NCBI RefSeq assembly: GCF_003258315.1
Contig: NZ_CP030032.1
Coordinates: 3,970,501-4,034,500, forward strand
Reading direction: 5' to 3'
Length of the DNA stretch: 64,000 nt
DNA from: Bradymonas sediminis
Lineage (GTDB): Bacteria; Myxococcota_A; Bradymonadia; Bradymonadales; Bradymonadaceae
The translations under genes and the position numbers were made by a program. Shown here piece after piece: positions 330-14,313 of this stretch (position 1 is the stretch's first letter; each line of letters starts with the position of its first letter). Under the pieces are notes generated by a model that saw nothing but the letters and a program-made list of their open reading frames with translations, was not told the origin of the DNA and ran no database searches.

Positions 330-1730
330 TTATTGCTTCTCGGCGAGCGCCTCGCGAATCACGCGCACAAAACTCTCGGCCGGCTGCGCGCCCACAACGG
401 CGGTGCCGTCGATGATAAAGGTCGGCGTCCCCTGGAACCCCAGCGCCTGCGCCTGGGCGGTGTCCGCCTTGATCTCGGCGTCGTATTTGTCGCCCGCCAT
501 ATCCGCCTTAAACTTCTTCATATTCAGGCTAAGGCTCTTGGCGAGTTCCTCGAAAATGCCCGGCTCACCGAGGTCGGCCTGGCGCTCAAAGAGCAGGTCG
601 TGCATCTCCCAGAATTTACCCTGCTCACGCGCCGCGATCGACGCCTTCGCCGCCGGATGCGCCTGCGGATGAAAACTCAGGGGCATATGTTTAAAGACCA
701 CGCGCACCGAATCGTCCACCTCGGCCAGCGCCTCTTTGAGGTTCACGTCGGCCTTGGCGCAATAGGGGCATTCAAAATCCTCGAAGGCAAAAATCGTCAC
801 CTTCGCGTCTTTGGGCCCGCGCACCTGACCGGGATGAATGGTCAACTTGCTGGTATCAAAGCGCAGCACCTCTTCGGCCGGCTCCCCGAGGTCGCCCTCC
901 CCGTCCTTCATCGACGGGCCCGGAATCATCGGCAATTGGCGCTGATAGTTCTCGGCAACCAACGAGGCGTAGAGATTCGGCGGGACGTCGCCCTCGCCGA
1001 TCTTCTCTTCGGCCTGGGCGCGGCGCGCCTCGACGACCCTGGCAAACTCATCAAAGGGCAGCGCCCCGTTCATGCGCTCCCCGTTGATGAAGAACGCCGG
1101 CGTCCCCTCGACCTTCAACTCGGCGGCGAGCTTCAGGTCGCGCTCGATGATCTGCGTGGTCTCTTGTGCGTCGAAATCCTTGCGGAATTTCTCCACGTCC
1201 AACTTCAACATGCCCGCGTATTTGGCGACCCATTCTTTGAAATCGCCGTCGTGCTCGCGGAACGCGTCCTGGTTCTCAAAGAGCCAATCGTGCATCTCCC
1301 AGAAGCGCCCCTGGCGCGACGCGGCGATCGACGCGCGCGCGGCGTCCTCGGCCTGCGGGTGGAAGGAGAGCGGAAGCTGCTTAAAGACGATCTTCGTATC
1401 TTCCGGGAAGGTCTTAAAGATCTGCGACAGCGTCCCCGCGCCGCGGCGGCAATAGGGGCATTGGAAGTCCGAGAAGGTCACGATGGTGACCTTCGCCGAC
1501 ATCGGCCCCATCATCGGGCTGCGCATAATCGGGATGATATCACTATCCTGAAACGCCACCTGGGGAGCGCCCCCGACTTTCTTGGTCAGCGTCCCCGCGC
1601 TCGACTCGTTGGAGCTCGACGCGTCGGGCTTCGACATCGACGTACACCCCGCCGCCACAAGGATTGCCCACACCAGCAGCAGGGCCATCGGTCCAAGGTG
1701 CCCCAGGAAATTTGTTCGCTTTGAGGTCAT
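330..1730 (-). CDS. Lipoprotein with two tandem DsbA-like thioredoxin domains
   Basis: A 466-residue protein with a lipoprotein signal (hydrophobic segment about 14-28, lipobox VAAGC, Cys29 as the lipidated residue). Two complete DsbA/Thioredoxin_4-type domains follow. Each has a CPYC active site (about residues 91-94 and 321-324), the family motif FWEMHDWLFE or FWEMHDLLFE, and a cis-proline loop (GTPAFFING, GTPTFIIDG). Known single-domain relatives are periplasmic thiol-disulfide oxidoreductases acting on exported proteins; two intact active sites in one chain suggest an envelope oxidoreductase or isomerase. It lies downstream of the three-domain paralogue at 1941-3965 on the same strand, but a strong terminator separates them, so it probably has its own promoter. 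No DsbB or DsbD partner is visible nearby. Confidence 0.88.
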   Translation of the reverse strand: MTSKRTNFLGHLGPMALLLVWAILVAAGCTSMSKPDASSSNESSAGTLTKKVGGAPQVAFQDSDIIPIMRSPMMGPMSAKVTIVTFSDFQCPYCRRGAGTLSQIFKTFPEDTKIVFKQLPLSFHPQAEDAARASIAASRQGRFWEMHDWLFENQDAFREHDGDFKEWVAKYAGMLKLDVEKFRKDFDAQETTQIIERDLKLAAELKVEGTPAFFINGERMNGALPFDEFARVVEARRAQAEEKIGEGDVPPNLYASLVAENYQRQLPMIPGPSMKDGEGDLGEPAEEVLRFDTSKLTIHPGQVRGPKDAKVTIFAFEDFECPYCAKADVNLKEALAEVDDSVRVVFKHMPLSFHPQAHPAAKASIAAREQGKFWEMHDLLFERQADLGEPGIFEELAKSLSLNMKKFKADMAGDKYDAEIKADTAQAQALGFQGTPTFIIDGTAVVGAQPAESFVRVIREALAEKQ

Positions 1731-1850
1731 TATTTATCCGAACGCAATGAAGTGAATACCAACATCCTCGGCGACCCTACTTCGCTCACCGAGCTTCATC
1801 AAGTCACACGCCGCGCCATATTCTAGGCACCTCTTCGCCAAGCCAAATAA

Positions 1851-1884
1851 AAAGCCCGCGACTCCAAAAGGAGTCGCGGGCTTT
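1851..1884 (-). terminator. Intrinsic terminator of the three-domain thioredoxin gene
   Basis: Perfect 15-bp stem (AAAGCCCGCGACTCC and its complement) with a four-base AAAA loop. On the minus strand the stem runs straight into a T-rich tract (CTTTTTATTTGG). It lies 57 bp past the stop of the gene ending at 1941 and so ends that transcript before the next minus-strand gene. Confidence 0.9.
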
Positions 1885-1940
1885 CGTGCTTTTAGCGCCG
1901 ATAGCCGCCGAGAATCTCAGCGGCTATCAACTCGGCCAAA

Positions 1941-3965
1941 TTACTTGGCTTCTTTCAGCGCGCGGTCGATCGCTTCTTTGAACTTCGAAGCAGGCTGTGC
2001 GCCGACGAGACGCTCGCCGTTGATGAAGAACGCGGGCGTTCCACGAACGCCAACCTTGGAACCCTGCGCCATGTCGGCGTCGATGATCTTCTGATACTCG
2101 GGGTTCTTCAGGTCTTTTTTGAACTTCTCGACGTTCAGGCCGAGCTTCTCGGCGTAGCCGATATAGGTGTCGTCGGAGCCCAGGTTACGCTGGTTCTCGA
2201 AGAGCAGGTCGTGCATCTCCCAGAATTTGCCCTGCTCGCCGGCAGCCATGGCGGCTTTCGACGCGCCCGGAGCCTTCTTGTGGAAGGGCAGCGGGTAATG
2301 CTTGAACGCGACTTTGACTTTGCCGTCATAGTCAGCGATCGCCTCTTTCAGGCTGGCATCGCCACGTTTGCAATAGGGGCACTCAAAATCGGAATACTCG
2401 ACGATCGTGACCGGAGCGTTCTTCGGTCCGAGGATGGGCGCGTTACCCAAAGCGAGGTCCTTGACGTCGACCTTTGCAGCCGGAGCGGCCGGTGCGGCCG
2501 GAGCTTTCGGGGCGCTGGCCTTATTCTTCTCGACCAGGGCTTTGTAGAGGTCATCACCCGACAATTTCTTGCTGGCTTTGAGCTCCTTGGCCAATTTGAT
2601 CTGCTTGTCGATCTCGGCTTTGAAGGACGGGAACGGCTGCGCACCACGAAGGTTGACGCCGTTGATCCAGAAGTTCGGGGTGCCACGCGCGCCAACTTTG
2701 CCGGCCAGCTTAAGGTCACGCTCAACCTGAGCGGCGATGGCCGGATCGTTATAATCCTTTTTGAATTTGGCGACGTTCAGGCCAAGCTGCTCGGCCAGGC
2801 CGGCAGCATATCCCTCGAAGTCGGCCGATTTGCTCTTGAACTCACGATGCTTCTCGAAGAGCAGGTCGTGCATCTCCCAGAATTTACCCTGACGGTCAGC
2901 CGCCAGCGAAGCGCGCGCAGCCGGCTTGGCTTCAGCATGCATGGCCAAGGGCAGTTGCTTGAACACGAAACGAACTTCGTTGCCGTACTCTTCTTTGATC
3001 TGCTTCACGGTCGGAACGACCTTGCTGCAGAAGGGGCATTGGAAGTCGGAGAATTCAACGATGGTGACCAACGGATCTTTGGTATTTCCGAAGACCGGGT
3101 CATTGGACTCGACCGGGATGAACTCAACGGAGGGACCAGCCGGCTTTGCAGCAGAAGGCTTGTTGTCAGCTTTGCCGCCGTCGAAGTTCTTGGCGACCAT
3201 TTTGCCGTAGACGTCAGCGCGAGCCACGCCGCCTTTCATCAGGCTCTTGGCCTCTTTCAGGTGCGCTTCAACGATCTCTTCGAACGCAGCCAGCGGCTTG
3301 GCGCCGACGACGCGCTCACCGTTGACGAAGAAGTGCGGGGTGCCACGAACGGCAACCTTTCCGCCGAGTTCCATGTCGTCTTTGACGATCTGGTGGGTCT
3401 TGGGATCATCGAAATCCTTATTGAATTTCTCGATATCAAGGCCGAGCGTTTTGGCGTGTCCGCCAGCCCACTCTTTCATATCGTCGCCGTGGTTGCGGAT
3501 CTCTTTCTGGTTTTTGAACAACCAGTCGTGCATCTCCCAGAATTTACCCTGGTTGCCGGCAGCGATCGCGGCATACGACGCGGGGGTCGCCTGCGGATGC
3601 ATGGGCAGCGGGTAATGCTTGAAGACGACCTTCACGTCGTCGGGGTATTTCTTCTGAAGCTGCTCCATCGTCGTCGCGCCACGGGCGCAGAAGGGGCATT
3701 GGAAGTCCGAGAATTCAACCACAGTAACCAACGCCGATTCTTTTCCAAGAATGAAGCTGTCGCCGATCGGAAGGGCCGTTCCATCGCCCTCGGTGCCACG
3801 CTCGCCGCTGGGGCTCGGCGCAACTGCTGCCGAGCCGGAGTCGCCGGCGTTGCCGGATTTGTTGGTCATATTTGAGACGAAGAAGCCGCCTGCAAATGCA
3901 ATCAAAGCTACGACGACGATCACCAGAAGGCGCGCCGTAGGGTTTCCACTATTTTCTTGTGCCAT
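1941..3965 (-). CDS. Membrane-anchored protein with three tandem DsbA-like thioredoxin domains
   Basis: A 674-residue protein starting at the ATG at 3965, preceded by AAAGGAA; the frame is open further upstream but has no better start. An N-terminal membrane anchor (about residues 12-30) is followed by a low-complexity linker and three DsbA/Thioredoxin_4-type domains. Active sites are CPFC (about 90-93), CPFC (about 310-313) and CPYC (about 529-532). Each domain repeats the FWEMHD motif and a GTP(H/N/A)F cis-proline loop. An Ala/Pro-rich linker (PKAPAAPAAPAAK) precedes domain three. It is probably a periplasm-facing disulfide oxidoreductase. Three domains in one chain is unusual, and the adjacent two-domain lipoprotein suggests growth by internal duplication. 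Confidence 0.9.
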   Translation of the reverse strand: MAQENSGNPTARLLVIVVVALIAFAGGFFVSNMTNKSGNAGDSGSAAVAPSPSGERGTEGDGTALPIGDSFILGKESALVTVVEFSDFQCPFCARGATTMEQLQKKYPDDVKVVFKHYPLPMHPQATPASYAAIAAGNQGKFWEMHDWLFKNQKEIRNHGDDMKEWAGGHAKTLGLDIEKFNKDFDDPKTHQIVKDDMELGGKVAVRGTPHFFVNGERVVGAKPLAAFEEIVEAHLKEAKSLMKGGVARADVYGKMVAKNFDGGKADNKPSAAKPAGPSVEFIPVESNDPVFGNTKDPLVTIVEFSDFQCPFCSKVVPTVKQIKEEYGNEVRFVFKQLPLAMHAEAKPAARASLAADRQGKFWEMHDLLFEKHREFKSKSADFEGYAAGLAEQLGLNVAKFKKDYNDPAIAAQVERDLKLAGKVGARGTPNFWINGVNLRGAQPFPSFKAEIDKQIKLAKELKASKKLSGDDLYKALVEKNKASAPKAPAAPAAPAAKVDVKDLALGNAPILGPKNAPVTIVEYSDFECPYCKRGDASLKEAIADYDGKVKVAFKHYPLPFHKKAPGASKAAMAAGEQGKFWEMHDLLFENQRNLGSDDTYIGYAEKLGLNVEKFKKDLKNPEYQKIIDADMAQGSKVGVRGTPAFFINGERLVGAQPASKFKEAIDRALKEAK

Positions 3966-4312
3966 AATCTTGAAATTCCTTTCAAAGGGTGTCCGACCGC
4001 TCGCCATCGAGAGGTCATCCGAACTAAAATTTAACGTCTTAAAAATATATTAATCTTCTCGTCACTCATCCGATATCGCTGGAAGCGGGCAACATATTCT
4101 ATCCAAATATGCTGCGGCGCCGCTTTTTAGCCATCGATTCGTCGTTTCGCGCTTGCCTTTACCCCGAACCCTGCATTTGATGCAAGTATTCGGACGCCGA
4201 AGTAATCCCTCCCAGTAGAGAGGCGATCACCGAGGCTCAGGAATCATTGGCGGGGCACTGCGCCCGCGCTGATTAAAGCGGAAACACGATAAGTTCAGAA
4301 GTTGAAGCGTAC
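3966..4312. other. Intergenic region, no gene seen
   Basis: About 350 bp between two minus-strand genes. It must hold the promoter of the three-domain thioredoxin gene; an AT-rich patch at about 4027-4060 is a candidate but no convincing -35/-10 pair was found. No structured RNA was recognised. Confidence 0.4.
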
Positions 4313-5074: not shown

Positions 5075-5423
5075 GATATCTGGTAATTATCCGAGCAAAT
5101 AATGCGAATTAAACTTCAACGAACGCCAGGGTGTTTTTGCGATAGCGAAACCACGACCTTCGGCGATTCATTCCATCGCAGGGCGGCCCAACGGGCGAAA
5201 AAGCCCGAAGAACCTGCAATTGGCGGATTCTAAAGCACTTCCAATGCCGATTCAAGCCGCCCCGCACTTAGGCCGTGCGGACCTGCGCCGCAGCCGCCAC
5301 GGCGCGCCTGGCGATAATAATCGCCAGAGTCTGTTGCATCAGCGCGATTTACGATAAATCATGGCCGCGTTGGGTCTCATTGCAACCGCAGACCCTCAAT
5401 TTACCCACCACCTGAGCCACCTT
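5075..5423. other. Divergent intergenic region
   Basis: About 350 bp between the minus-strand secreted protein and the plus-strand sugar genes, so it should hold promoters for both. An open frame begins at an ATG at 5361, but homology to the oxidoreductase family starts only after 5424. I saw no clear operator or RNA element. Confidence 0.4.
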
Positions 5424-6464
5424 GTGAAGTCCACCCCGATCACTTTTGCCCTCGTCGGTTGCGGCCGCGTCGCCCGCCAACATCTGCGCGCGCTTCGCCA
5501 CCACAGCGGGCGCGCCGAGCTTATCGCGGTGTGCGACCCCGACCCCGAGCGGCGACGCGCGGCGAGCCTGGAGCATGGCGCCCCCGAGTTTGCTTCGCTC
5601 GAAGTGTTGCTCAAAGACACGCGTCCCGACGTGCTGATCCTCACCTCGCCCAGCGGCCTGCACCCCGAGCAGGCAATCCTAGGCGCCCAGCGCGGCTGCC
5701 ATATCATCTGCGAGAAGCCGATCGCGACCCATTGGGAAGATGGCCTGCGCATGGTCGAAGCGTGCGAGGCGGCCGACAAAACACTCTTTATCGTCAAGCA
5801 ATTGCGCTATAACCCGACCCTGCAATTGCTCAAAAACGCGCTGGATGCGCAGCGCTTCGGCGATGTGCACCTGATCGATATCGACGTCTTCTGGACGCGC
5901 CCGCAAGACTATTATGACGCGGAAGACTGGCGCGGAACCCGCAAATTGGACGGCGGCGCATTCCTGAACCAGACCAGCCATTATATCGATCTTCTGAGTT
6001 GGCTCTTCGGCCCGGTCGCCGACGTGCACGCGTTCACCGCGACGCTCGGGCGCAAGATTGAGGTCGAGGATTCGGGCGTGCTCAACCTGCGCTGGCGCGC
6101 CGGCACGCTGGGGTCGATGAGCGTCACGATGCTCACCTACCCCGAGAACCTTCGCGCCTCGATGACCATCGCCGGCAGCCGAGGCACCGCGGTCCTGGGC
6201 GGCAAGGCCTGCGATCAGATCGAGACCTGGCGCTTTGAAGACGCCAATACGAGCGCGCCCGACGACGATATCGACGCGATCAACCAGCAAACCCGCGACT
6301 TCTATGGCAACGGCCATCTTCGCTATTATGCCAACGTCCTCGACGCGCTCCAGCACGGCGCGCCGGTCGACGTCGACGGGCGAGAAGGGCTAAAATCGCT
6401 GGAGATCATCGAGGCGGCTTATCGGTCGGCGCGCCTGAAAACCAGCGTGGAGTTGCCACTATGA
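5424..6464 (+). CDS. Gfo/Idh/MocA-family NAD(P)-dependent sugar oxidoreductase (WbpB/WlbA-like)
   Basis: A 346-residue protein. The family's N-terminal Rossmann strand (TFALVGCGRVARQH) starts just after a GTG at 5424; an ATG at 5361 would add 21 residues without homology, so GTG is preferred, though no strong ribosome-binding site is visible. Family marks include the EKP motif (ICEKPIATHWEDG, substrate/cofactor lysine) and the C-terminal alpha/beta domain (GGAFLNQTSHYIDLLSWLFG). These enzymes oxidise or reduce a hydroxyl of nucleotide-activated sugars, for example C3 of UDP-GlcNAcA. The stop overlaps the start of the acetyltransferase gene by ATGA. With the aminotransferase at 13204 this is the oxidation/transamination/acetylation set for a 3-acetamido sugar. 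Confidence 0.85.
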   Translation: MKSTPITFALVGCGRVARQHLRALRHHSGRAELIAVCDPDPERRRAASLEHGAPEFASLEVLLKDTRPDVLILTSPSGLHPEQAILGAQRGCHIICEKPIATHWEDGLRMVEACEAADKTLFIVKQLRYNPTLQLLKNALDAQRFGDVHLIDIDVFWTRPQDYYDAEDWRGTRKLDGGAFLNQTSHYIDLLSWLFGPVADVHAFTATLGRKIEVEDSGVLNLRWRAGTLGSMSVTMLTYPENLRASMTIAGSRGTAVLGGKACDQIETWRFEDANTSAPDDDIDAINQQTRDFYGNGHLRYYANVLDALQHGAPVDVDGREGLKSLEIIEAAYRSARLKTSVELPL

Positions 6465-7045
6465 GCGCGGTCACAGCCCACCCCAGCGCCATCATCGACC
6501 CGGGCGCGACGATCGGCGACGGCACCCGCATCTGGCACTTCTCGCATATCTGCGCGGGCGCCGAGATCGGGGCGAATTGCTCGCTGGGGCAAAATGTATT
6601 CGTCGCCGGCGGCGCCCGCATCGGCGCGGGCTCAAAGATCCAGAATAACGTCTCGATCTTCGACGGTGTCGTGCTTGCCGAAGACGTCTTCGTCGGCCCC
6701 AGCGCCGTCTTTACCAATGTGCGCCACCCCCGCGCGCACGTCTCGCGCCGCTCAGAATACGGCGCGACCCGCGTCGGCCGCGGCGCCAGCATCGGCGCGA
6801 ACGCCACCATTGTCTGCGGCTCAACCGCCCACCCCCGAGTCATCGGGGAATACGCGCTGGTCGGCGCCGGTTCGGTCGTCACATGCGATCTCCGCGCGCA
6901 CGCGCTCGTCGTCGGCAACCCGGCGCGCCAAATCGGCTGGGTATGCGCATGTGGTGAGCGGCTCGACGACGACCTCATATGCGCGCGCTGCGCAAATCAG
7001 TACCGCTTGGCCGGCGAGCAGATTGAGCGCGTCCCCGCCCAATAA
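6461..7045 (+). CDS. Hexapeptide-repeat N-acetyltransferase (WbpD/WlbB-like)
   Basis: A 194-residue protein made of left-handed beta-helix hexapeptide repeats (IDPGATIGDGTRIWHFSHI, IGANCSLGQNVFVAGG, IGAGSKIQNNVSIFDG) ending in GNPARQIGWVC, as in the WbpD/WlbB acetyltransferases that acetylate the 3-amino group of UDP-amino sugars. The C-terminus carries a four-cysteine ribbon-like motif (CACGERLDDDLICARC), a tail also seen in some relatives. Start codon overlaps the upstream stop (ATGA), so it is translationally coupled to the oxidoreductase. The matching aminotransferase lies 6 kb downstream, beyond the BREX-like cassette. Confidence 0.87.
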   Translation: MSAVTAHPSAIIDPGATIGDGTRIWHFSHICAGAEIGANCSLGQNVFVAGGARIGAGSKIQNNVSIFDGVVLAEDVFVGPSAVFTNVRHPRAHVSRRSEYGATRVGRGASIGANATIVCGSTAHPRVIGEYALVGAGSVVTCDLRAHALVVGNPARQIGWVCACGERLDDDLICARCANQYRLAGEQIERVPAQ

Positions 7046-7180
7046 GATCTTTATTGCGACGTCAATCTCGGGACATCGAAAATACCTGCAAAATAGTTAC
7101 TTGTCATTTGATCAGGTGTGCCGATAAATATTAGCCCGGGATTGAGCACTCGAATCCACTGACTTTCTGTATTTCAGACG

Positions 7181-7213
7181 GACAACCTGCAAGCGCGGGC
7201 TGTCAGTTTTTTT
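7181..7213 (+). terminator. Possible terminator between sugar genes and the BREX-like cassette
   Basis: An imperfect hairpin (GACAACC pairing with GGGCTGTC, one mismatch) is followed by AG and seven Ts at 7207-7213. If real it separates the sugar genes from the four-gene cassette starting at 7259. The long loop and mismatch make it weaker than the other terminators here. Confidence 0.4.
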
Positions 7214-7258
7214 ATACCTCAAATACTTCTCAAATTTTGGTTCCAAAGGGAGCGCGCG

Positions 7259-8158
7259 ATGACCCAAGATGCAGTCGAAACAACTCAAGACAAAAAAGAT
7301 CCGACGCAAGAATTGGCCGAGGCGCTTTATCAGCAATTAAAAACGCACGCCCGGCGGGTCAAACGCACCGAAAAACTCCTCAAGCAGGTTCAGGGGAAGG
7401 CGCCCTCGCCGGCCACATTTACCGATTGGCTCGACATCGCCCAGAGCCTGGAGGGCTATGCGCTCGGCGTGCCCGAGCTCGACGCCCAACGCGAAGCGTT
7501 GCTCAAGCAGATCGACAGCGGCATGCAGAAGCTGCGCCTAAAAACGCGCATGACCTTCTTCGCCGAGTTGGAGAAGCGCGCCGCCGAGAGCAATATCAAA
7601 TTGCAAAAGCTCTCAGACACCCCCTATGTCGCCTACGCCGACCCGATGACGCTTGAGGTCGACTTCGATCTGGGCTGCACCCGCGTGCTCTACGGCCACG
7701 AGCTTATCTGCGAGGTCGAACTCGACGCGCGAAAACTCCTCGACGCCCGCGAAAACGCGCTCAAAGAGATCAAGAAACAGGCGCTCGATTCCGAGGAGTT
7801 TTTCAACGCCCTGCACGCATCCTATCGCACTGTTCTAGCGGCCGAGGGCCTGCCCTACGGCGAGCGCGTAGACCTGGTCGATGTGTTGATGCCGATGTCG
7901 ATGATGCGCCTATCCCGCGCGAACTGGCGAAAAAAGGGCGTCGACGCCCTTCAACCATTCACCCGCCACCAACTCGCCTGGCAGCTCAGCCAACTGCGCC
8001 GCGACGCGATGCTGGAGCACGACGGCAAGCGCCTGGATATCGGCGCCGCCACCGGTGGCTCCACCCGCGACAAACGCAATGTGCTCTATATTCCGATCGG
8101 CTCCGGAAACGGGCAATATTACCGCTCTATTCGATTCACCGCCGCGCCTGCGGCCTGA
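7259..8158 (+). CDS. Unknown protein, first gene of the BREX-like ATPase/helicase cassette
   Basis: A 299-residue soluble protein starting at an ATG preceded by AAAGGGAG. The N-terminal ~150 residues are charged and helical with coiled-coil character (for example ALYQQLKTHARRVKRTEKLL). The C-terminal part is compact and includes VDVLMPMSMMRLSRANWRKK and a glycine-rich end (IPIGSGNGQYYRSIRF). No signal peptide or membrane segment, and no nuclease, methyltransferase or TerB signature that I can see. It is followed by two BrxD-like ATPases and a helicase on the same strand (115-bp gap, then short gap and overlap), so it is probably a dedicated partner or specificity subunit. I do not recognise the family. 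Confidence 0.75.
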   Translation: MTQDAVETTQDKKDPTQELAEALYQQLKTHARRVKRTEKLLKQVQGKAPSPATFTDWLDIAQSLEGYALGVPELDAQREALLKQIDSGMQKLRLKTRMTFFAELEKRAAESNIKLQKLSDTPYVAYADPMTLEVDFDLGCTRVLYGHELICEVELDARKLLDARENALKEIKKQALDSEEFFNALHASYRTVLAAEGLPYGERVDLVDVLMPMSMMRLSRANWRKKGVDALQPFTRHQLAWQLSQLRRDAMLEHDGKRLDIGAATGGSTRDKRNVLYIPIGSGNGQYYRSIRFTAAPAA

Positions 8159-8273
8159 ATCAGCCTCATCATGCACAAGATTCATCGAGCGAGCAGCGCG
8201 GCGCGCGTGAAGCACGCGTGCTCATCAAACTTGTCTCGCTCAAGCATTCCATATACGGCCCGAGAAACCAGCT

Positions 8274-9602
8274 ATGACACAACACGCCACCATCGACCCG
8301 CGGGTCGCATCTCATATCCTGCAGCGTCTGGGCGAGAGCGGACAGCCGCCTGAATTCGGCGTCGAATGGATTAATGTCGGCAACGAGAGCTACCTCAAAG
8401 TGCTCGAAAGCGAGTATTTCGAGCGCCAACTCAAAGGCGGCGCGAGCTTCAAGCTCGTGCAAGGTTATTTCGGCGGAGGAAAGACGCATTTCCTCTATTG
8501 CGTGCGCGATATGGCCTGGCGCCACGGCTTCGCGGTGGCGGTGGTTGAATTATCGCCCACCGAATGCCCCTATGATGACACCCTTAAGGTTTACTCGACG
8601 GTCGCCCGACGCATCGCCATGAAGTCGCCGACCGACGGCGAAGGCCCGCGCTACGGCATCACCGATATGTTGCGGGATCTGGTCGACCGGCGCGTCGACG
8701 AATTCGAAGAAGACCTGCGCGCCCAGGGCCACGAGCGCCCGCATGTCGAGGCCCGACACCAGGTGGAGCGCTGGATCCAGCGTCACGTGGCGCGCGTCTC
8801 CTGCGAGAGCGTCTCGTATCGAAAGGCCATCGTCGAGTTCGCGTTAGGTTGGCTCGAAGAGGATTATGAGCGCGTCCAACGCCTCGAGGCGTGGCTGCGC
8901 GGCGAGCCCATCCCGCGCGCCGAAGTGCGCGATTGGGGAATCTACGAGGAGATGAGCCGCGCCAACGGCTTTTTGATGCTTCGAAGCCTCACTCAAATGG
9001 TCAAAGGCCTCGGGTTTGCGGGCACCGCCCTGCTCTTCGACGAGGTCGATCGCAACCTCTCGGTGAGCGCCAAGCGCAGCCAAACGATCGGCGATAACCT
9101 GCGCCAGGTCATCGACCTCTGCGGGCGCCATCAACTCCCGAACACCCTCTTTATGTACGCGGTTCCGCCGGAGTTTATGCGCACCGTGGTCCCGGATTAC
9201 CCGGCGCTTTTTCAGCGCCTCAAGACCCCGGTCCCCCTCGGCGTGCGAAGCCCGCAGGCCGTCCTCATCGACCTCGAAAAGCTTGACCTGGAGCCCGCGG
9301 AGCTGCTCACCGCGATCGGCGAGCGCCTGATCCCGATCTTCGAGGCCGCGCGCGGCTTTAAGCTCGACGCAGAGATTCAGCGAAATAACGCCGACATCCT
9401 GGCCCGCGCCTGCGTGCAATCCCAATTCGAGGTCAACCACCGCCGCCTCTTTGTCAAAACGATGGTGGACTTTTTGCACGCCCAAATGGTCGACGGCGAG
9501 AAGGCGCTTGGCCTGGATAGCGCCATCGATCTGGTGCTCGATGGCAACGAGTCGCTCAACAACCTCGTGCTCGTCAGCGATGACGAATTCCAAGACTTTT
9601 GA
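8274..9602 (+). CDS. BREX-type P-loop ATPase (DUF2791/BrxD-like), copy 1
   Basis: A 442-residue ATPase. The N-terminus has the family layout: a short helical segment, then Walker A GYFGGGKT (residues 64-71), and later Walker B ALLFDEVDRNL (about 255). The YFGGGKTH form and the region after it (VELSPTECPYDDTLKVY) match the BREX ATP-binding family to which BrxD of type 2 and type 6 BREX belongs. The biochemical role of BrxD is not settled; it is assumed to be an STAND/AAA-like ATPase working with the BrxHI helicase. It precedes a second, divergent member with 17 bp between stop and start. The family call is confident; participation in a defence system is inferred. Confidence 0.85.
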   Translation: MTQHATIDPRVASHILQRLGESGQPPEFGVEWINVGNESYLKVLESEYFERQLKGGASFKLVQGYFGGGKTHFLYCVRDMAWRHGFAVAVVELSPTECPYDDTLKVYSTVARRIAMKSPTDGEGPRYGITDMLRDLVDRRVDEFEEDLRAQGHERPHVEARHQVERWIQRHVARVSCESVSYRKAIVEFALGWLEEDYERVQRLEAWLRGEPIPRAEVRDWGIYEEMSRANGFLMLRSLTQMVKGLGFAGTALLFDEVDRNLSVSAKRSQTIGDNLRQVIDLCGRHQLPNTLFMYAVPPEFMRTVVPDYPALFQRLKTPVPLGVRSPQAVLIDLEKLDLEPAELLTAIGERLIPIFEAARGFKLDAEIQRNNADILARACVQSQFEVNHRRLFVKTMVDFLHAQMVDGEKALGLDSAIDLVLDGNESLNNLVLVSDDEFQDF

Positions 9603-9619
9603 GACGCCGGAACGAGTCC

Positions 9620-10966
9620 ATGAATAAGAATCTTGAGACAAGCATTCGCGCCTCACGCACCCTGGAAGCCATGCGCCTGGGCGTGGTTCCGAGCGCGTCG
9701 CTGGACGCCTATACCGTCGGGCGCGAGGCCGAGGTGGCCCTGGTCCAGAGCGATCTCACGCGCGCCACCGAAAACGGCGGCGCGGTGCGCGCCTTTTTAG
9801 GCGGCTACGGCGCGGGCAAAACACATCTGCTCGAGTTGATCGGCCAACACGCGCTGCGCCAGAATTACCTGGTCTCACACGTCGTCCTCAACCCCGAAGA
9901 GACCGCCCCCAGCCACCCCAAACGCGTCTATCGCGAATTGATCCACTCGCTTCAATACCCGGATCTGCCCGACTCCGACGGCCCCGCTCGCGGGTTGCAA
10001 CCGCTCTTTGAGCGCGCGCTCAACGCTCCCGCCGCGCTCGACGCATTTCAGGCAAACGCCAAGGGACAGGTTCGAAACAACCTCGAAAGCGGCGCTCACC
10101 TCTATATTACGACCGCCCTTCGCTACCTCAAACGACTGGCCGACACCGAAGATCTCAATCGCGAAACCCAGGAGCATATCCTTCGCCTGCTCTTCGATTG
10201 GCTCGAAGGACACCCGACGATCTCGACCACCGAGATCAACGAAGACCTGCGCGGAGTGCTCGGCAACCGCGGCCATATCTTCAGCATGAAGGACTACCGC
10301 CCCTGGGCTCGAATCTACGGTTATCTGCTCAGCGGCCTCTCCGCGATGGCTCGCCAACTCGGCTATAACGGCTGGGTTATCCTGGTCGATGAGGCCGAGT
10401 TTTACTCGCTTCTGTCGAGCGAAAACCGCGAATACGCGCGTAATCTATTTAAGGCGCTCACCTGGGCGTCGGTCGGCAACGATGACGATATCTTGCCCTT
10501 CGACCCCTCGGAGCTAAGCCTCGGCGGCAGCGGGATCCTGCAGGATTTGCCGCCGCAATATCCGATGCCGACCTCCGCTGGCCCAGCGAATAGCGACGCA
10601 GCGATCTTCGCCGGCCCCGGGCTCTATACCGTCTTCGCGATGACCCCGAATACCGAGGGGCTTGAGGCGCTGGGCGAAGCGGTCCCTGCGAGCGCCATCG
10701 CCGAGCTCAACCCGCTGAAACTCGAGGACTATCAGGCACTTGTAGAGCGGGTCTTCACCTATTATCGCCGCGCCCGCCCCGAATCCATCATCGATGAACG
10801 CGTCGTCGGCGCCCTCGGAAAAGTCGTCGCCGGATTGCTCGGCTCGGGTTATGTCGAAAACCCACGCCAGGCAATGAAATTCATCGTCGAGTTCCTCGAC
10901 CTCGCCACACATCGCCCCCACGATATGAAGCGCGTCGTCCAAGATCTGCGAGGCCTCTACGCATGA
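9620..10966 (+). CDS. BREX-type P-loop ATPase (DUF2791/BrxD-like), copy 2
   Basis: A 448-residue protein, starting at ATG 9620 (an in-frame ATG at 9599 overlaps the previous gene and is less likely). Walker A is GGYGAGKT (residues 61-68) and Walker B is VILVDEAEFYSLL (about 255). The N-terminus (ASRTLEAMRLGVVPSASLDA) matches the BrxD-type opening more closely than copy 1 does. The two copies share architecture but have diverged strongly in sequence, so they are probably different subunits rather than a recent duplication. The stop overlaps the helicase start (ATGA), implying fixed stoichiometry with the helicase. Confidence 0.87.
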   Translation: MNKNLETSIRASRTLEAMRLGVVPSASLDAYTVGREAEVALVQSDLTRATENGGAVRAFLGGYGAGKTHLLELIGQHALRQNYLVSHVVLNPEETAPSHPKRVYRELIHSLQYPDLPDSDGPARGLQPLFERALNAPAALDAFQANAKGQVRNNLESGAHLYITTALRYLKRLADTEDLNRETQEHILRLLFDWLEGHPTISTTEINEDLRGVLGNRGHIFSMKDYRPWARIYGYLLSGLSAMARQLGYNGWVILVDEAEFYSLLSSENREYARNLFKALTWASVGNDDDILPFDPSELSLGGSGILQDLPPQYPMPTSAGPANSDAAIFAGPGLYTVFAMTPNTEGLEALGEAVPASAIAELNPLKLEDYQALVERVFTYYRRARPESIIDERVVGALGKVVAGLLGSGYVENPRQAMKFIVEFLDLATHRPHDMKRVVQDLRGLYA

Positions 10967-13131
10967 CGAGTTCCTCCGATAAGTCGTTCGCGCTGCAGGA
11001 TGACCCCTTCGCGGGCCTTGAAGACGCGCTCGAATATAGCCCTGCGCGCGCGCCCAAGGGGGACTTCGGCGAACGCGAGGCGCGCCGGCTTTTGCCGCAC
11101 GTCTGGCACGCCTTCTTCGGGCGATTCGGCCGCCTCACCGACCCCCAACTCGCCGCGATCAAACCGATCGTTGAGGGGAAATCAGTGGTCCTCTGCGCGG
11201 CGACCGCCTCGGGAAAGACCGAAGCCCTGCTCGGCCCGATGCTCGAGCGAACCATGCAGCGCGCTGCGAGAAAATCCACCGCGCAGCGTTTTTTACGCGT
11301 CATCATCCTCTGCCCCACCCGTGCACTATGCAACGACTTTTTGCGACGCGTGCGAAGGCCGATCCAGGCCTGCAATCTGAGCGTGGATCTCAAAAGTGGC
11401 GACAGCCCAAATTTCGACCCGGATCGCCCGCCAAATGTCCTGATCACCACTCCGGAATCCCTGGATTCACTCCTCAGCCGAAAACCGCACGGCCTCAAAC
11501 ACGTCGAATCGATCTTCCTCGATGAGGTTCATCTGCTCGATGGGGGCAATCGCGGCGACCATACGCGCGCGCTCGTCGCGCGCATCAAAAGCTTTCGCCC
11601 CAACCTGCAGATTTGCTGCGCCTCGGCCACCGCCCCGCAGGCCGAGCGCCTGGGGCTCGAATTCGCCCAGCCCAACTCCCCCGAGGATTTAGAGATATTG
11701 CGCGTCCAGGGTGGCCGCGACCGCGACCTGAGCGTCGAATACGAACAATTTCACCGGATGCGCGACGCCGCGGCGAGTATTTATCGCCTCACCCAGAATC
11801 AGCTAGGCAGTAAGATTCTGGTCTTCGCCAATAAACGTGACGAAGTCGAATATATCGCCGCCCTATTGGCCGCCGAAGACGGCCTGCCGGTCTTCGCGCA
11901 CCACGGAAGCCTGGCCAAACCCGAGCGACTTCGCGCCGAGCGCGGCTTCCTCAACGCGACCCACGGCGTCTGCGTCGCCACGATGACCCTCGAATTGGGC
12001 ATCGACATCGGCAACGTCGACCGCGTCGTCTTGCTCAATCCACCCGCGAATGTCGCCTCATTCACACAGCGGATCGGACGCAGCAACCGACGCGGCGGCG
12101 ACATCCAGGTGACGTGCCTCTACGCGTCGGCCTTTGATTTGCAGCGCTTTGAGCACCTCGTAAAATGCGCGCGCGCGGGTCAACTCTTCGTCGAAGCGAT
12201 CCCCTTTCGCCCGTCGATTCTGCCCCAACAAGCGACCTCATTGCTCTTCCAAAACCCCGACAACTGGGTCTCGGATCGGGTCCTACACAAACGACTCCCG
12301 CCCGATGTCGCCGCTGAATGGACCCGCGCGGATTGCCGCGCGGTCCTCGAAACGATGCGACGCGAAGGCTATTTCCACGCCAACGCCCGCGGCCAATTCG
12401 TGGCCGACGAACCGGCGCGCCGAGACTATCGCTACGGGCAGATGCACACCCATATCGATCCCGACGGCGAAGTCGAGGTCATCGACGAGACCACCGGCCG
12501 CCAGGTCGGCACTGCCTTATTATCGCGCAAGGACAAGAGCCGCCTGGAGGAAAGTAGCGCCTCGCACGTCGGCTTCCTCCTGGCCGGAAAGCAACGAAAG
12601 GTCACCCGCGTCAAAGACCAAAAAATCTTCGTCCAATCGAATAACCTCCCGGATGAACCCAGCTTTCTCTCCCGCATGGGCCCGCGCTATTCTTTCGACC
12701 TCGCCCGAGACCTCGCCGACTTTGTCGGCGTCGAGGAGAAGACAATCTTGATGCACCCGACCGGCGCGCGCGACGGATGGTATATTGAGCATTTCTTCGG
12801 CAGCATCTGGGGTTGGCTGCTCGACGCTGTTTTGGAGCACCACGGCTTCATGACCAACACCAAAGGGGGCATCAGCCATTTTCAATCCAAATTAAAATAT
12901 AAGGGTACCCCGCCGGAATCGCTCGGCGATATTTTCACCATCCAGACCGCCGCCGAGAAATTCTTGGACGACACCGATGCCCCGAAGTACAAAGCGCTGC
13001 TGAGATCCTTGCAGCCCGGCCCCTGGCTCAACTACGTCCCCGACGACATGGTCCAACGCTGGGTCTATCACTGCGCACGCCCTGCTGACTTTGCCGACAC
13101 GCTGGCCGAATTCCGGGTCGTGGTGGTCTAA
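10963..13131 (+). CDS. DEAH/Lhr-like superfamily 2 helicase (BrxHI-like)
   Basis: A 722-residue helicase. Motifs in order: Walker A ATASGKTEA (about residue 80), DEVH box FLDEVHLLDG (about 187), motif III CASATAP, motif IV region ILVFANKRDEVEYIA, motif V TMTLELGIDIGNVDRVV and motif VI QRIGRSNRRGG. The C-terminal ~300 residues resemble the winged-helix/Lhr-core part of Lhr-type helicases, the same group as BrxHI of BREX types 2 and 6. The start overlaps the end of the second BrxD-like ATPase. In characterised BREX loci BrxD and BrxHI accompany PglX, PglZ and BrxC/PglY; none is present here. It could translocate on or remodel invading DNA, or act in repair. Confidence 0.87.
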   Translation: MTSSSDKSFALQDDPFAGLEDALEYSPARAPKGDFGEREARRLLPHVWHAFFGRFGRLTDPQLAAIKPIVEGKSVVLCAATASGKTEALLGPMLERTMQRAARKSTAQRFLRVIILCPTRALCNDFLRRVRRPIQACNLSVDLKSGDSPNFDPDRPPNVLITTPESLDSLLSRKPHGLKHVESIFLDEVHLLDGGNRGDHTRALVARIKSFRPNLQICCASATAPQAERLGLEFAQPNSPEDLEILRVQGGRDRDLSVEYEQFHRMRDAAASIYRLTQNQLGSKILVFANKRDEVEYIAALLAAEDGLPVFAHHGSLAKPERLRAERGFLNATHGVCVATMTLELGIDIGNVDRVVLLNPPANVASFTQRIGRSNRRGGDIQVTCLYASAFDLQRFEHLVKCARAGQLFVEAIPFRPSILPQQATSLLFQNPDNWVSDRVLHKRLPPDVAAEWTRADCRAVLETMRREGYFHANARGQFVADEPARRDYRYGQMHTHIDPDGEVEVIDETTGRQVGTALLSRKDKSRLEESSASHVGFLLAGKQRKVTRVKDQKIFVQSNNLPDEPSFLSRMGPRYSFDLARDLADFVGVEEKTILMHPTGARDGWYIEHFFGSIWGWLLDAVLEHHGFMTNTKGGISHFQSKLKYKGTPPESLGDIFTIQTAAEKFLDDTDAPKYKALLRSLQPGPWLNYVPDDMVQRWVYHCARPADFADTLAEFRVVVV

Positions 13132-13203: not shown

Positions 13204-14313
13204 ATGACCCAACTTCCTTTTTTCGACATCCAAGCCCAGCACGAACCCATCCGCGAAGAGATCGCCCAGGCGATCGCCCTGGTCATCGACTCCGGCCGGT
13301 TTATCCGCGGCCCCTTCGTAGAGAAATTCGAGGCAGAAGCAGCCGCCTACCTGGGCGTCTCCCACACCGTCGGCGTGTCCTCGGGCACCGACGCCCTGCT
13401 GGCCGCGCTCATGGCCCTTGAGATCGGCCCAGGGGATGAAGTGATCACCACGCCCTTTACCTTCTGCGCCTCCGCCGAGGTGATCGCGCGCGTGGGCGCG
13501 ACGCCGGTCTTCGTCGATATCGATCCCGCGACCTTTAACCTCGACCCCGCGCTGCTCGAAGATGCGCTCAGCGAGAAGACTCGCGCGATCATGCCGGTGC
13601 ATATCTTCGGCCAGACCTGCGATATGGAGAAGATCCTCGCCTTCGCCCGGCAAAACGACCTCTATGTGATTGAGGATTGCGCGCAGGCCATGGGCGCCAC
13701 CTTCGACCTCCCCGGCTCCGGCCCCCAGCAGGCGGGCGCGATGGGCCACGTCGGCTGCTATAGCTTCTTCCCCACCAAAAACCTCGGCGCACTCGGCGAC
13801 GGCGGACTCATCGCCTGCCATAACCCCGAGCTGGCCGAGCGCATCCGACTGCTATGCAACCACGGCAGCCAACCGAAATTTCGCCAGCAACGCATCGGCG
13901 GAAACTTCCGCCTCGACGCCATCCAGGCCGCCGTCCTCAGCGTCAAGCTCCCCCGCCTCGACGCCTGGATCGCCCAACGCCGCGACCTCGCCAAGCGCTA
14001 TCACCACGCCCTTGGCGACCTCGACGAGATCACCGTCCCAGACGAAGCGCCGCGCTGCTTGCACACCTATAACCAATATACGCTGCGCACCGCCGATCGC
14101 CCCGCCCTTCAAAAGCGACTGGCAGACGCGGGCATCCCCAGCGCCATTTACTATCGCGAGAGCCTCCACCAGATGCCGCCTTATCGCGAATGCCCGCGCT
14201 ATCCGGACACGCTACCCCAGGCCACGGCCGCCTGCGACGAAGTCTTGAGCCTGCCGATCTTCGCCCCCTCGATCGAGGTCGACCGCATCCGGCACACGCT
14301 CGCCAACGCATAG
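13204..14313 (+). CDS. DegT/DnrJ/EryC1-family PLP aminotransferase (WbpE-like)
   Basis: A 369-residue nucleotide-sugar aminotransferase. It shows GVSSGTDALLAALMALEIG (phosphate-binding region), YVIEDCAQAMGATF (PLP-ring aspartate) and CYSFFPTKNLGALGDGG with the Schiff-base lysine. The closest known role is WbpE/WlbC, which transaminates the 3-keto sugar made by WbpB-type enzymes before WbpD-type acetylation. It lies 72 bp after the helicase stop and probably reads through from it or has its own promoter. Its natural partners at 5424-7045 are on the far side of the BREX-like cassette, which suggests the cassette was inserted into a sugar operon. Confidence 0.88.
   Translation: MTQLPFFDIQAQHEPIREEIAQAIALVIDSGRFIRGPFVEKFEAEAAAYLGVSHTVGVSSGTDALLAALMALEIGPGDEVITTPFTFCASAEVIARVGATPVFVDIDPATFNLDPALLEDALSEKTRAIMPVHIFGQTCDMEKILAFARQNDLYVIEDCAQAMGATFDLPGSGPQQAGAMGHVGCYSFFPTKNLGALGDGGLIACHNPELAERIRLLCNHGSQPKFRQQRIGGNFRLDAIQAAVLSVKLPRLDAWIAQRRDLAKRYHHALGDLDEITVPDEAPRCLHTYNQYTLRTADRPALQKRLADAGIPSAIYYRESLHQMPPYRECPRYPDTLPQATAACDEVLSLPIFAPSIEVDRIRHTLANA

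Follow-up and report, generated by a model that had tools for sequence, protein, structure and literature searches.

Gene content of the locus

The window (the whole stretch of 64,000 nucleotides of Bradymonas sediminis DNA that was analysed) carries four genes on the forward strand, which form one run in the list of open-reading frames between positions 7259 and 13131. The first, g1 (7259..8158), encodes a 299-residue protein of no known family, g2 (8274..9602) a 442-residue ATPase of the BrxC/BrxD type (ORC/Cdc6-class AAA+), g3 (9620..10966) a second, divergent ATPase of the same type and g4 (10963..13131) a 722-residue SF2 helicase of the Ski2/Lhr/BrxHI-like kind. A spacing of 115 bp separates g1 from g2, and g3 and g4 share an ATGA overlap at 10963–10966, which confirms the four same-strand genes and the ATGA overlap described in an initial annotation made from the sequence alone. 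The g3 frame can also be read from a TTG at 9599 (455 aa, 9599–10966), but its homologues begin at the methionine encoded by ATG 9620, with which the invariant columns of the family alignment start, so this is probably the true start; the apparent overlap of g2 and g3 is then probably not real, and a 17-nt gap lies between them instead. The cassette has a GC content of 60–62%, the same as the genome, and is preceded by an AT-rich spacer (7046..7258, 44% GC), its likely promoter site, in which we infer the cassette promoter to lie and where matches to consensus promoters occur at chance level only. On either side, also on the forward strand, are the two halves of a split sugar operon: genes for a Gfo/Idh/MocA dehydrogenase and a hexapeptide acyltransferase (WbpB/WbpD-like, 5361..7045), and for a DegT/DnrJ/EryC1 aminotransferase (WbpE-like, 13204..14313). 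Elsewhere in the window, on the reverse strand (333–4007), two adjacent genes encode large multi-DsbA/thioredoxin-domain proteins of 466 and 688 aa.

Judged by their Pfam scores, g2 (E 8.5e-44, 150.5 bits) and g3 (E 1.3e-34, 120.3 bits) are members of the BrxC/BrxD (PF10923) ATPase superfamily, whose gathering score is 22.2. The Walker A forms first read in them, YFGGGKTH in g2 and YGAGKTHL in g3, are present as claimed, together with the helicase motifs of g4. The catalytic glycines and lysine of Walker A and the acidic pairs of Walker B are invariant in all 15–19 homologues of g2 and g3, and since these residues are kept throughout, activity is to be expected of both proteins; the GKT/DExH motifs of g4 are likewise invariant in all 15–19 homologues. 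The most conserved of the four proteins is g2, with 48–81% identity to its homologues, followed by g3 (37–68%), g4 (33–57%) and g1 (27–53%). In PADLOC, the best match for both ATPases is BrxD, with SngB behind; however, against the BrxD equivalog NF033438 (cut-off 350 bits) g2 scores 117.7 and g3 93.4 bits, and in the ATPase tree g2, g3, BrxD and SngB fall into four separate groups, the joins between them being weakly supported. The two ATPases, initially read as BrxD-type, are thus a distinct PF10923 pair, but neither is a true BrxD, each lying in a clade of its own and scoring far under the curated cut-off. A single-sequence search of the genome with g3 matched g2 and g3 alone, and a sequence search of the PDB with the g1, g2 and g3 profiles found no relative. 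One genus of the sample (genus g13) also encodes a second, solitary g3-like ATPase with an extra N-terminal region (L194:5405-7435, L196:3948-6017, L203:4965-6944), which is DUF3293 (PF11697) in the copy examined; no second g1, g2 or g4 is found near it.

Pfam recognises DEAD and Helicase_C domains in g4. Its best PADLOC match is BrxHI (254.8 bits), followed by SngC (188 bits), whilst its top NCBIfam match is the ligase-associated DNA-damage DEXH helicase TIGR04121, at 174 bits under a curated cut-off of 850, a score that rules out membership of that family. In the helicase tree, the g4 clade (support 100/100) lies outside a BrxHI and SngC group (99/99), in which SngC joins BrxHI and not g4, and it is also apart from the Lhr-like proteins tested. 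The label BrxHI-like therefore holds for the best PADLOC match, but g4, with a separate clade of its own, is not a BrxHI.

No Pfam or NCBIfam match and no usable PADLOC match was found for g1, which bears out its description as an undescribed partner of 299 residues; its profile matched 59 of 379 genomes of the phylum. In an AlphaFold2 model of g1 (pLDDT 90), the N-terminus forms a helical bundle, the middle of the chain a beta-sheet and the C-terminus a winged-helix-like domain. Residues 177–298 of the model aligned with ORC1 winged-helix domains at Z 5.5–6.6 (rmsd 3.4–4.5 Å), values which unrelated matches reach similarly and which, like all fold matches of g1 and of the g5 protein described below, are under Z 8 and so at the level of suggestion. 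The resemblance of the g1 C-terminus to the ORC1 winged helix is accordingly suggestive; a Foldseek search with the model returned nothing significant, and the most conserved stretch of the family (ATGGST...GQYY) lies in the wing region. Among 20 homologues of g1, searched with E values of up to 1, none matched TerB_N, TerB or TerB_C, in a search where an SngA used as control matched all three domains. An hhalign comparison of g1 with SngA gave a probability of 0.1%, on which a hidden TerB domain was rejected. Of the profile families named initially for comparison (BREX, TerB-linked and defence families), BrxD and BrxHI were recovered as the best PADLOC matches of g2–g4, but no TerB was found and g1 stayed unmatched.

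Recurrence of the gene set

Genomes of one phylum, plus plasmid and phage collections, were sampled for the four genes. Strong g3 orthologues occurred in about a third of the 96 relatives searched, and g1 was present in each of the 32 genomes that have a strong g3. Of the 20-odd loci that were read, many have the four genes on one strand in the order g1-g2-g3-g4, in genera, families, orders and classes across the phylum, a recurrence far above chance, and the presence of the cassette is patchy even within one family. In one family (L192 and L200), a much diverged four-gene set was seen with g1 at about 70 bits, and in L192 both ATPase frames possibly carry N-terminal extensions of about 300 aa.

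Searches with a g4 profile detected an orthologue (424–1009 bits) in 37 of 41 g1-positive genomes and in none of 50 g1-negative genomes, where the best score, 262 bits, was at the level of paralogues of the BrxHI, SngC and Lhr kinds (Fisher p 2e-21, overstated by kinship among the genomes). This co-occurrence also holds where g4 is not adjacent to g3. Many of the genomes are drafts, in which another contig does not always mean unlinked, and three cases of splitting were read directly. In the first, a family (f5) in which a class-I tRNA synthetase gene follows g3 and g4 is on another contig, the split arrangement is stable: PfkB-g1-g2-g3-tRNA synthetase in one place, g4-g5 elsewhere. In the second (G011), unrelated genes follow g3 and g4 is found elsewhere in the genome, whilst in the third (G058) the displaced gene is g1. 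The minimal four-gene cassette of the initial annotation is therefore real as a recurring order, but g4, with g5, can sit elsewhere in the genome. Because g4 tracks the cassette even when it is located elsewhere, the set looks obligate, and nothing argues more strongly for joint action of the proteins than this dependence between unlinked genes.

The fifth protein, g5, belongs to a poorly conserved family of about 300–640 aa which adjoins g4 in several loci, and in six genomes adjoins a g4 that is displaced and unlinked. It was detected in 19 of 41 cassette genomes and in 1 of 39 others (p 4e-6, overstated by kinship), a tally that leans towards cassette genomes because the g5 profile was first built from cassette-side loci; its position beside displaced g4 genes is independent of this bias. 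In the genome of the window, the g5 homologue is on the reverse strand at about 566.0–567.8 kb (L175:8018-9751), unlinked to the cassette, where it has a 4-nt overlap with a malate synthase-like gene and a convergent histidyl-tRNA synthetase-like gene as its other neighbour; from the association of g5 with the cassette alone, we infer that this copy works with it. In the AlphaFold2 model of g5 (pLDDT 84), residues 474–546 match the RNA polymerase alpha-CTD (Z 6.3–6.6, 1.8–2.2 Å, about 24% identity), a match ranking above its other structural matches, and are predicted to form a helix-hairpin-helix-like DNA-binding module. Some members have an N-terminal SEC-C motif, beyond which no Pfam or PADLOC match was found. 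The model speaks, though not decisively, against g5 as a nuclease effector, its leading matches being alpha-CTD/HhH only, with no nuclease among them.

Genomic setting

Both in the window and in a second genome (G010), a WbpB-WbpD-WbpE-like sugar operon is interrupted by the cassette, which separates its acyltransferase gene from its aminotransferase gene. Several genomes of the same family have no cassette at this place, the dehydrogenase, acyltransferase and DegT aminotransferase genes there adjoining one another, and on this comparison of gene order the cassette has been inserted into the operon. A tree of RpoB, in which eight distant rows hold about 30% of the columns and the same-family rows are complete, unites two genomes of one genus, G002 and G020 (88% identity, support 100/100). 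Their cassettes, however, fall in different clades, a forced union of which is rejected (AU p 1.8e-9), and the g2 of G002 shares 75% identity with the g2 of the window and 66% with that of G020. This conflict points to horizontal exchange of the module, or else to differential loss of ancient copies.

Across loci, the housekeeping flanks include tRNA synthetase, PRPP synthetase, sugar operon and malate synthase genes. When 110 flanking proteins from 19 loci were searched against PADLOC, the best 25 of 42 families each matched only two proteins, and the two matching flank proteins are apparently ordinary protein kinases; among the matches listed, the flanks are ordinary genes, not defence islands. 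No copy of the cassette was present in the phage and viral-contig collections, and plasmids held only relatives under 60% identity (about 24–30% among the matches listed). On the distance of these plasmid relatives, the absence of phage or viral copies and a GC content equal to that of the genome, a recently acquired mobile island was rejected.

A chromosomal target for the set is favoured by this genomic setting, by the split operon that is stable in one family, and by how strongly g2 is conserved. It is thus possible, though we hold it to be a minority reading, that the proteins form an accessory, occasionally transferred complex for chromosomal DNA repair or replication maintenance, comparable to the Lhr-type DNA-damage helicases and not anti-phage. 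The housekeeping flanks, the split arrangement, the conserved g2, the genome-like GC content and the identity of the top NCBIfam match of g4, a ligase-associated DNA-damage helicase, are all consistent with such a complex, whereas its patchy presence within one family, its horizontal replacement within one genus, the anti-phage nature of its closest profile relatives and the distance of the g4 clade from Lhr are not easily reconciled with it. The ligase-associated helicases (TIGR04121) share the SF2 helicase core with g4; g4 differs from them in its pairing with two AAA+ ATPases and in its separate clade.

Relation to Shango, BREX and ORC/Cdc6 systems

Shango has anti-phage activity, conferred by three genes in one operon that encode a TerB-like protein, a single ATPase and a helicase (PMC10250203). 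Like the cassette, it is a small stand-alone operon (SngA-SngB-SngC) of a partner, a PF10923-type ATPase and a DEAD/DEAH helicase, and this shared logic of partner, ATPase and helicase, with PADLOC matches of SngB to g2 and g3 and of SngC to g4, could suggest a divergent Shango in which g1 has taken the place of SngA and the ATPase has been duplicated. We regard this as improbable: SngA is a TerB protein of 616–829 aa in the copies read, whereas g1 is a 299-aa protein with none of the three TerB domains and next to no profile similarity to SngA; Shango has one ATPase and the cassette two; and the SngB and SngC clades are their own and exclude g2, g3 and g4, SngC grouping with BrxHI. Shango is also common on plasmids, whereas the cassette system was seen only on chromosomes.

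Two other plasmid-borne arrangements were observed in the course of these comparisons. On two haloarchaeal plasmids (L054:4518-14895, L055:4452-14934), Shango-type operons are followed immediately by genes for a metallophosphoesterase, an SMC-family ATPase and NurA, which gives Shango DNA-repair-like surroundings there. On a plasmid of Deinococcus psychrotolerans (L089:1978-9392), genes for an LRV/HEAT-repeat protein, a 451-aa protein without a Pfam match, a PF10923 ATPase and a DEAD/DEAH helicase stand together, and this plasmid has a second gene with the annotation of a BREX ATP-binding protein. This look-alike was rejected as the same system, the 451-aa gene lacking PF10923 and the first gene encoding a LRV/HEAT-repeat protein, and is possibly another unnamed ATPase-helicase system.

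In BREX type 2, BrxD and BrxHI form a tightly linked pair, and BrxD is an ORC-Cdc6 AAA+ ATPase without DNA-binding domains which may load or activate BrxHI (2026 survey, PMC12839542). The BrxD-BrxHI pair of BREX types 2 and 6 resembles the cassette in placing a PF10923 ATPase beside an SF2 Ski2/Lhr-like helicase; the cassette differs in having two ATPases, not one, and the undescribed g1, in lacking PglZ and any BrxD above the curated cut-off, and in a helicase from a separate clade. A search for PglZ (PF08665) in the complete 5.05-Mb genome of the window found none, and in 80 genomes PglZ was independent of the cassette, with scores over the cut-off in 12 of 41 cassette genomes and 6 of 39 others (p 0.18). 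As PglZ is absent genome-wide and does not track the cassette, the locus is not a BREX fragment, in keeping with the initial proposal of a separate system, for which a neighbourhood comparison across genomes had been suggested: g1-g2-g3-g4 recurs in it without association with PglZ. Against the converse, that the four genes are scattered BREX parts, stand the 29 of 41 cassette genomes without PglZ over the cut-off. In some genomes BrxD/BrxHI-like genes and PglZ do coexist elsewhere, and the helicases concerned fall among those of plasmid BREX systems. It thus seems very improbable indeed that the cassette was left over from a type 2/6 locus, whether by decay or as an orphan, for although BrxD and BrxHI are its best PADLOC matches and are tightly linked in BREX type 2, PglZ is missing from the genome and not associated with the cassette, and the intact frames and motifs show no decay.

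With the ORC/Cdc6 initiators and loaders, the set shares the AAA+ class of the BrxD family and a winged helix suggested in g1. The winged helix of the cassette would, however, be on a separate protein, on the strength of a suggestive fold match, and the helicase is an SF2 enzyme, not MCM or DnaB. No two-ATPase system of this kind is described in the literature searched.

A proposed helicase-loading system

We think it rather likely that the locus encodes the core of a multi-component system for handling DNA, distinct and so far without a name, which comprises g1–g4 and often g5 and would act by a loader mechanism. In this mechanism, g1 would provide a winged helix to contact the DNA, a part missing from stand-alone BrxD-type ATPases, and g1, g2 and g3 would assemble on DNA as a hetero-oligomeric ATPase that loads or switches on g4. 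The g5 protein may tether the helicase to its substrate, and g4 would then unwind or strip the target DNA.

The role of such a system may be comparable to that of Shango and the BREX BrxD-BrxHI pair, namely to clear DNA that is foreign or abnormal, a proposal for which we judge the case to be evenly poised. A foreign target is slightly favoured by the anti-phage nature of the related modules and by the apparent horizontal exchange of the set. Against a defence role stand its housekeeping neighbours, the split operon and the lack of copies in phages and plasmids; no nuclease or other killing domain was found in the set.

More tentatively, and with a little less than even confidence, the loader system could be a bacterial DNA machine of a new class: two different ORC/Cdc6-type ATPases and a separate winged-helix subunit would form a dedicated loader of an SF2 helicase, the four to five proteins being conserved as an obligate set also where their genes are dispersed, and the system would be a sister of the BREX and Shango ATPase-helicase pairs. 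The set is a recurring one that present defence and repair annotation has missed. With its two ATPases, small partner and strict co-occurrence, it is also a compact stand-alone counterpart of the ATPase-helicase pairs of BREX type 2 and Shango, in which the idea that BrxD loads the helicase could be tested directly.
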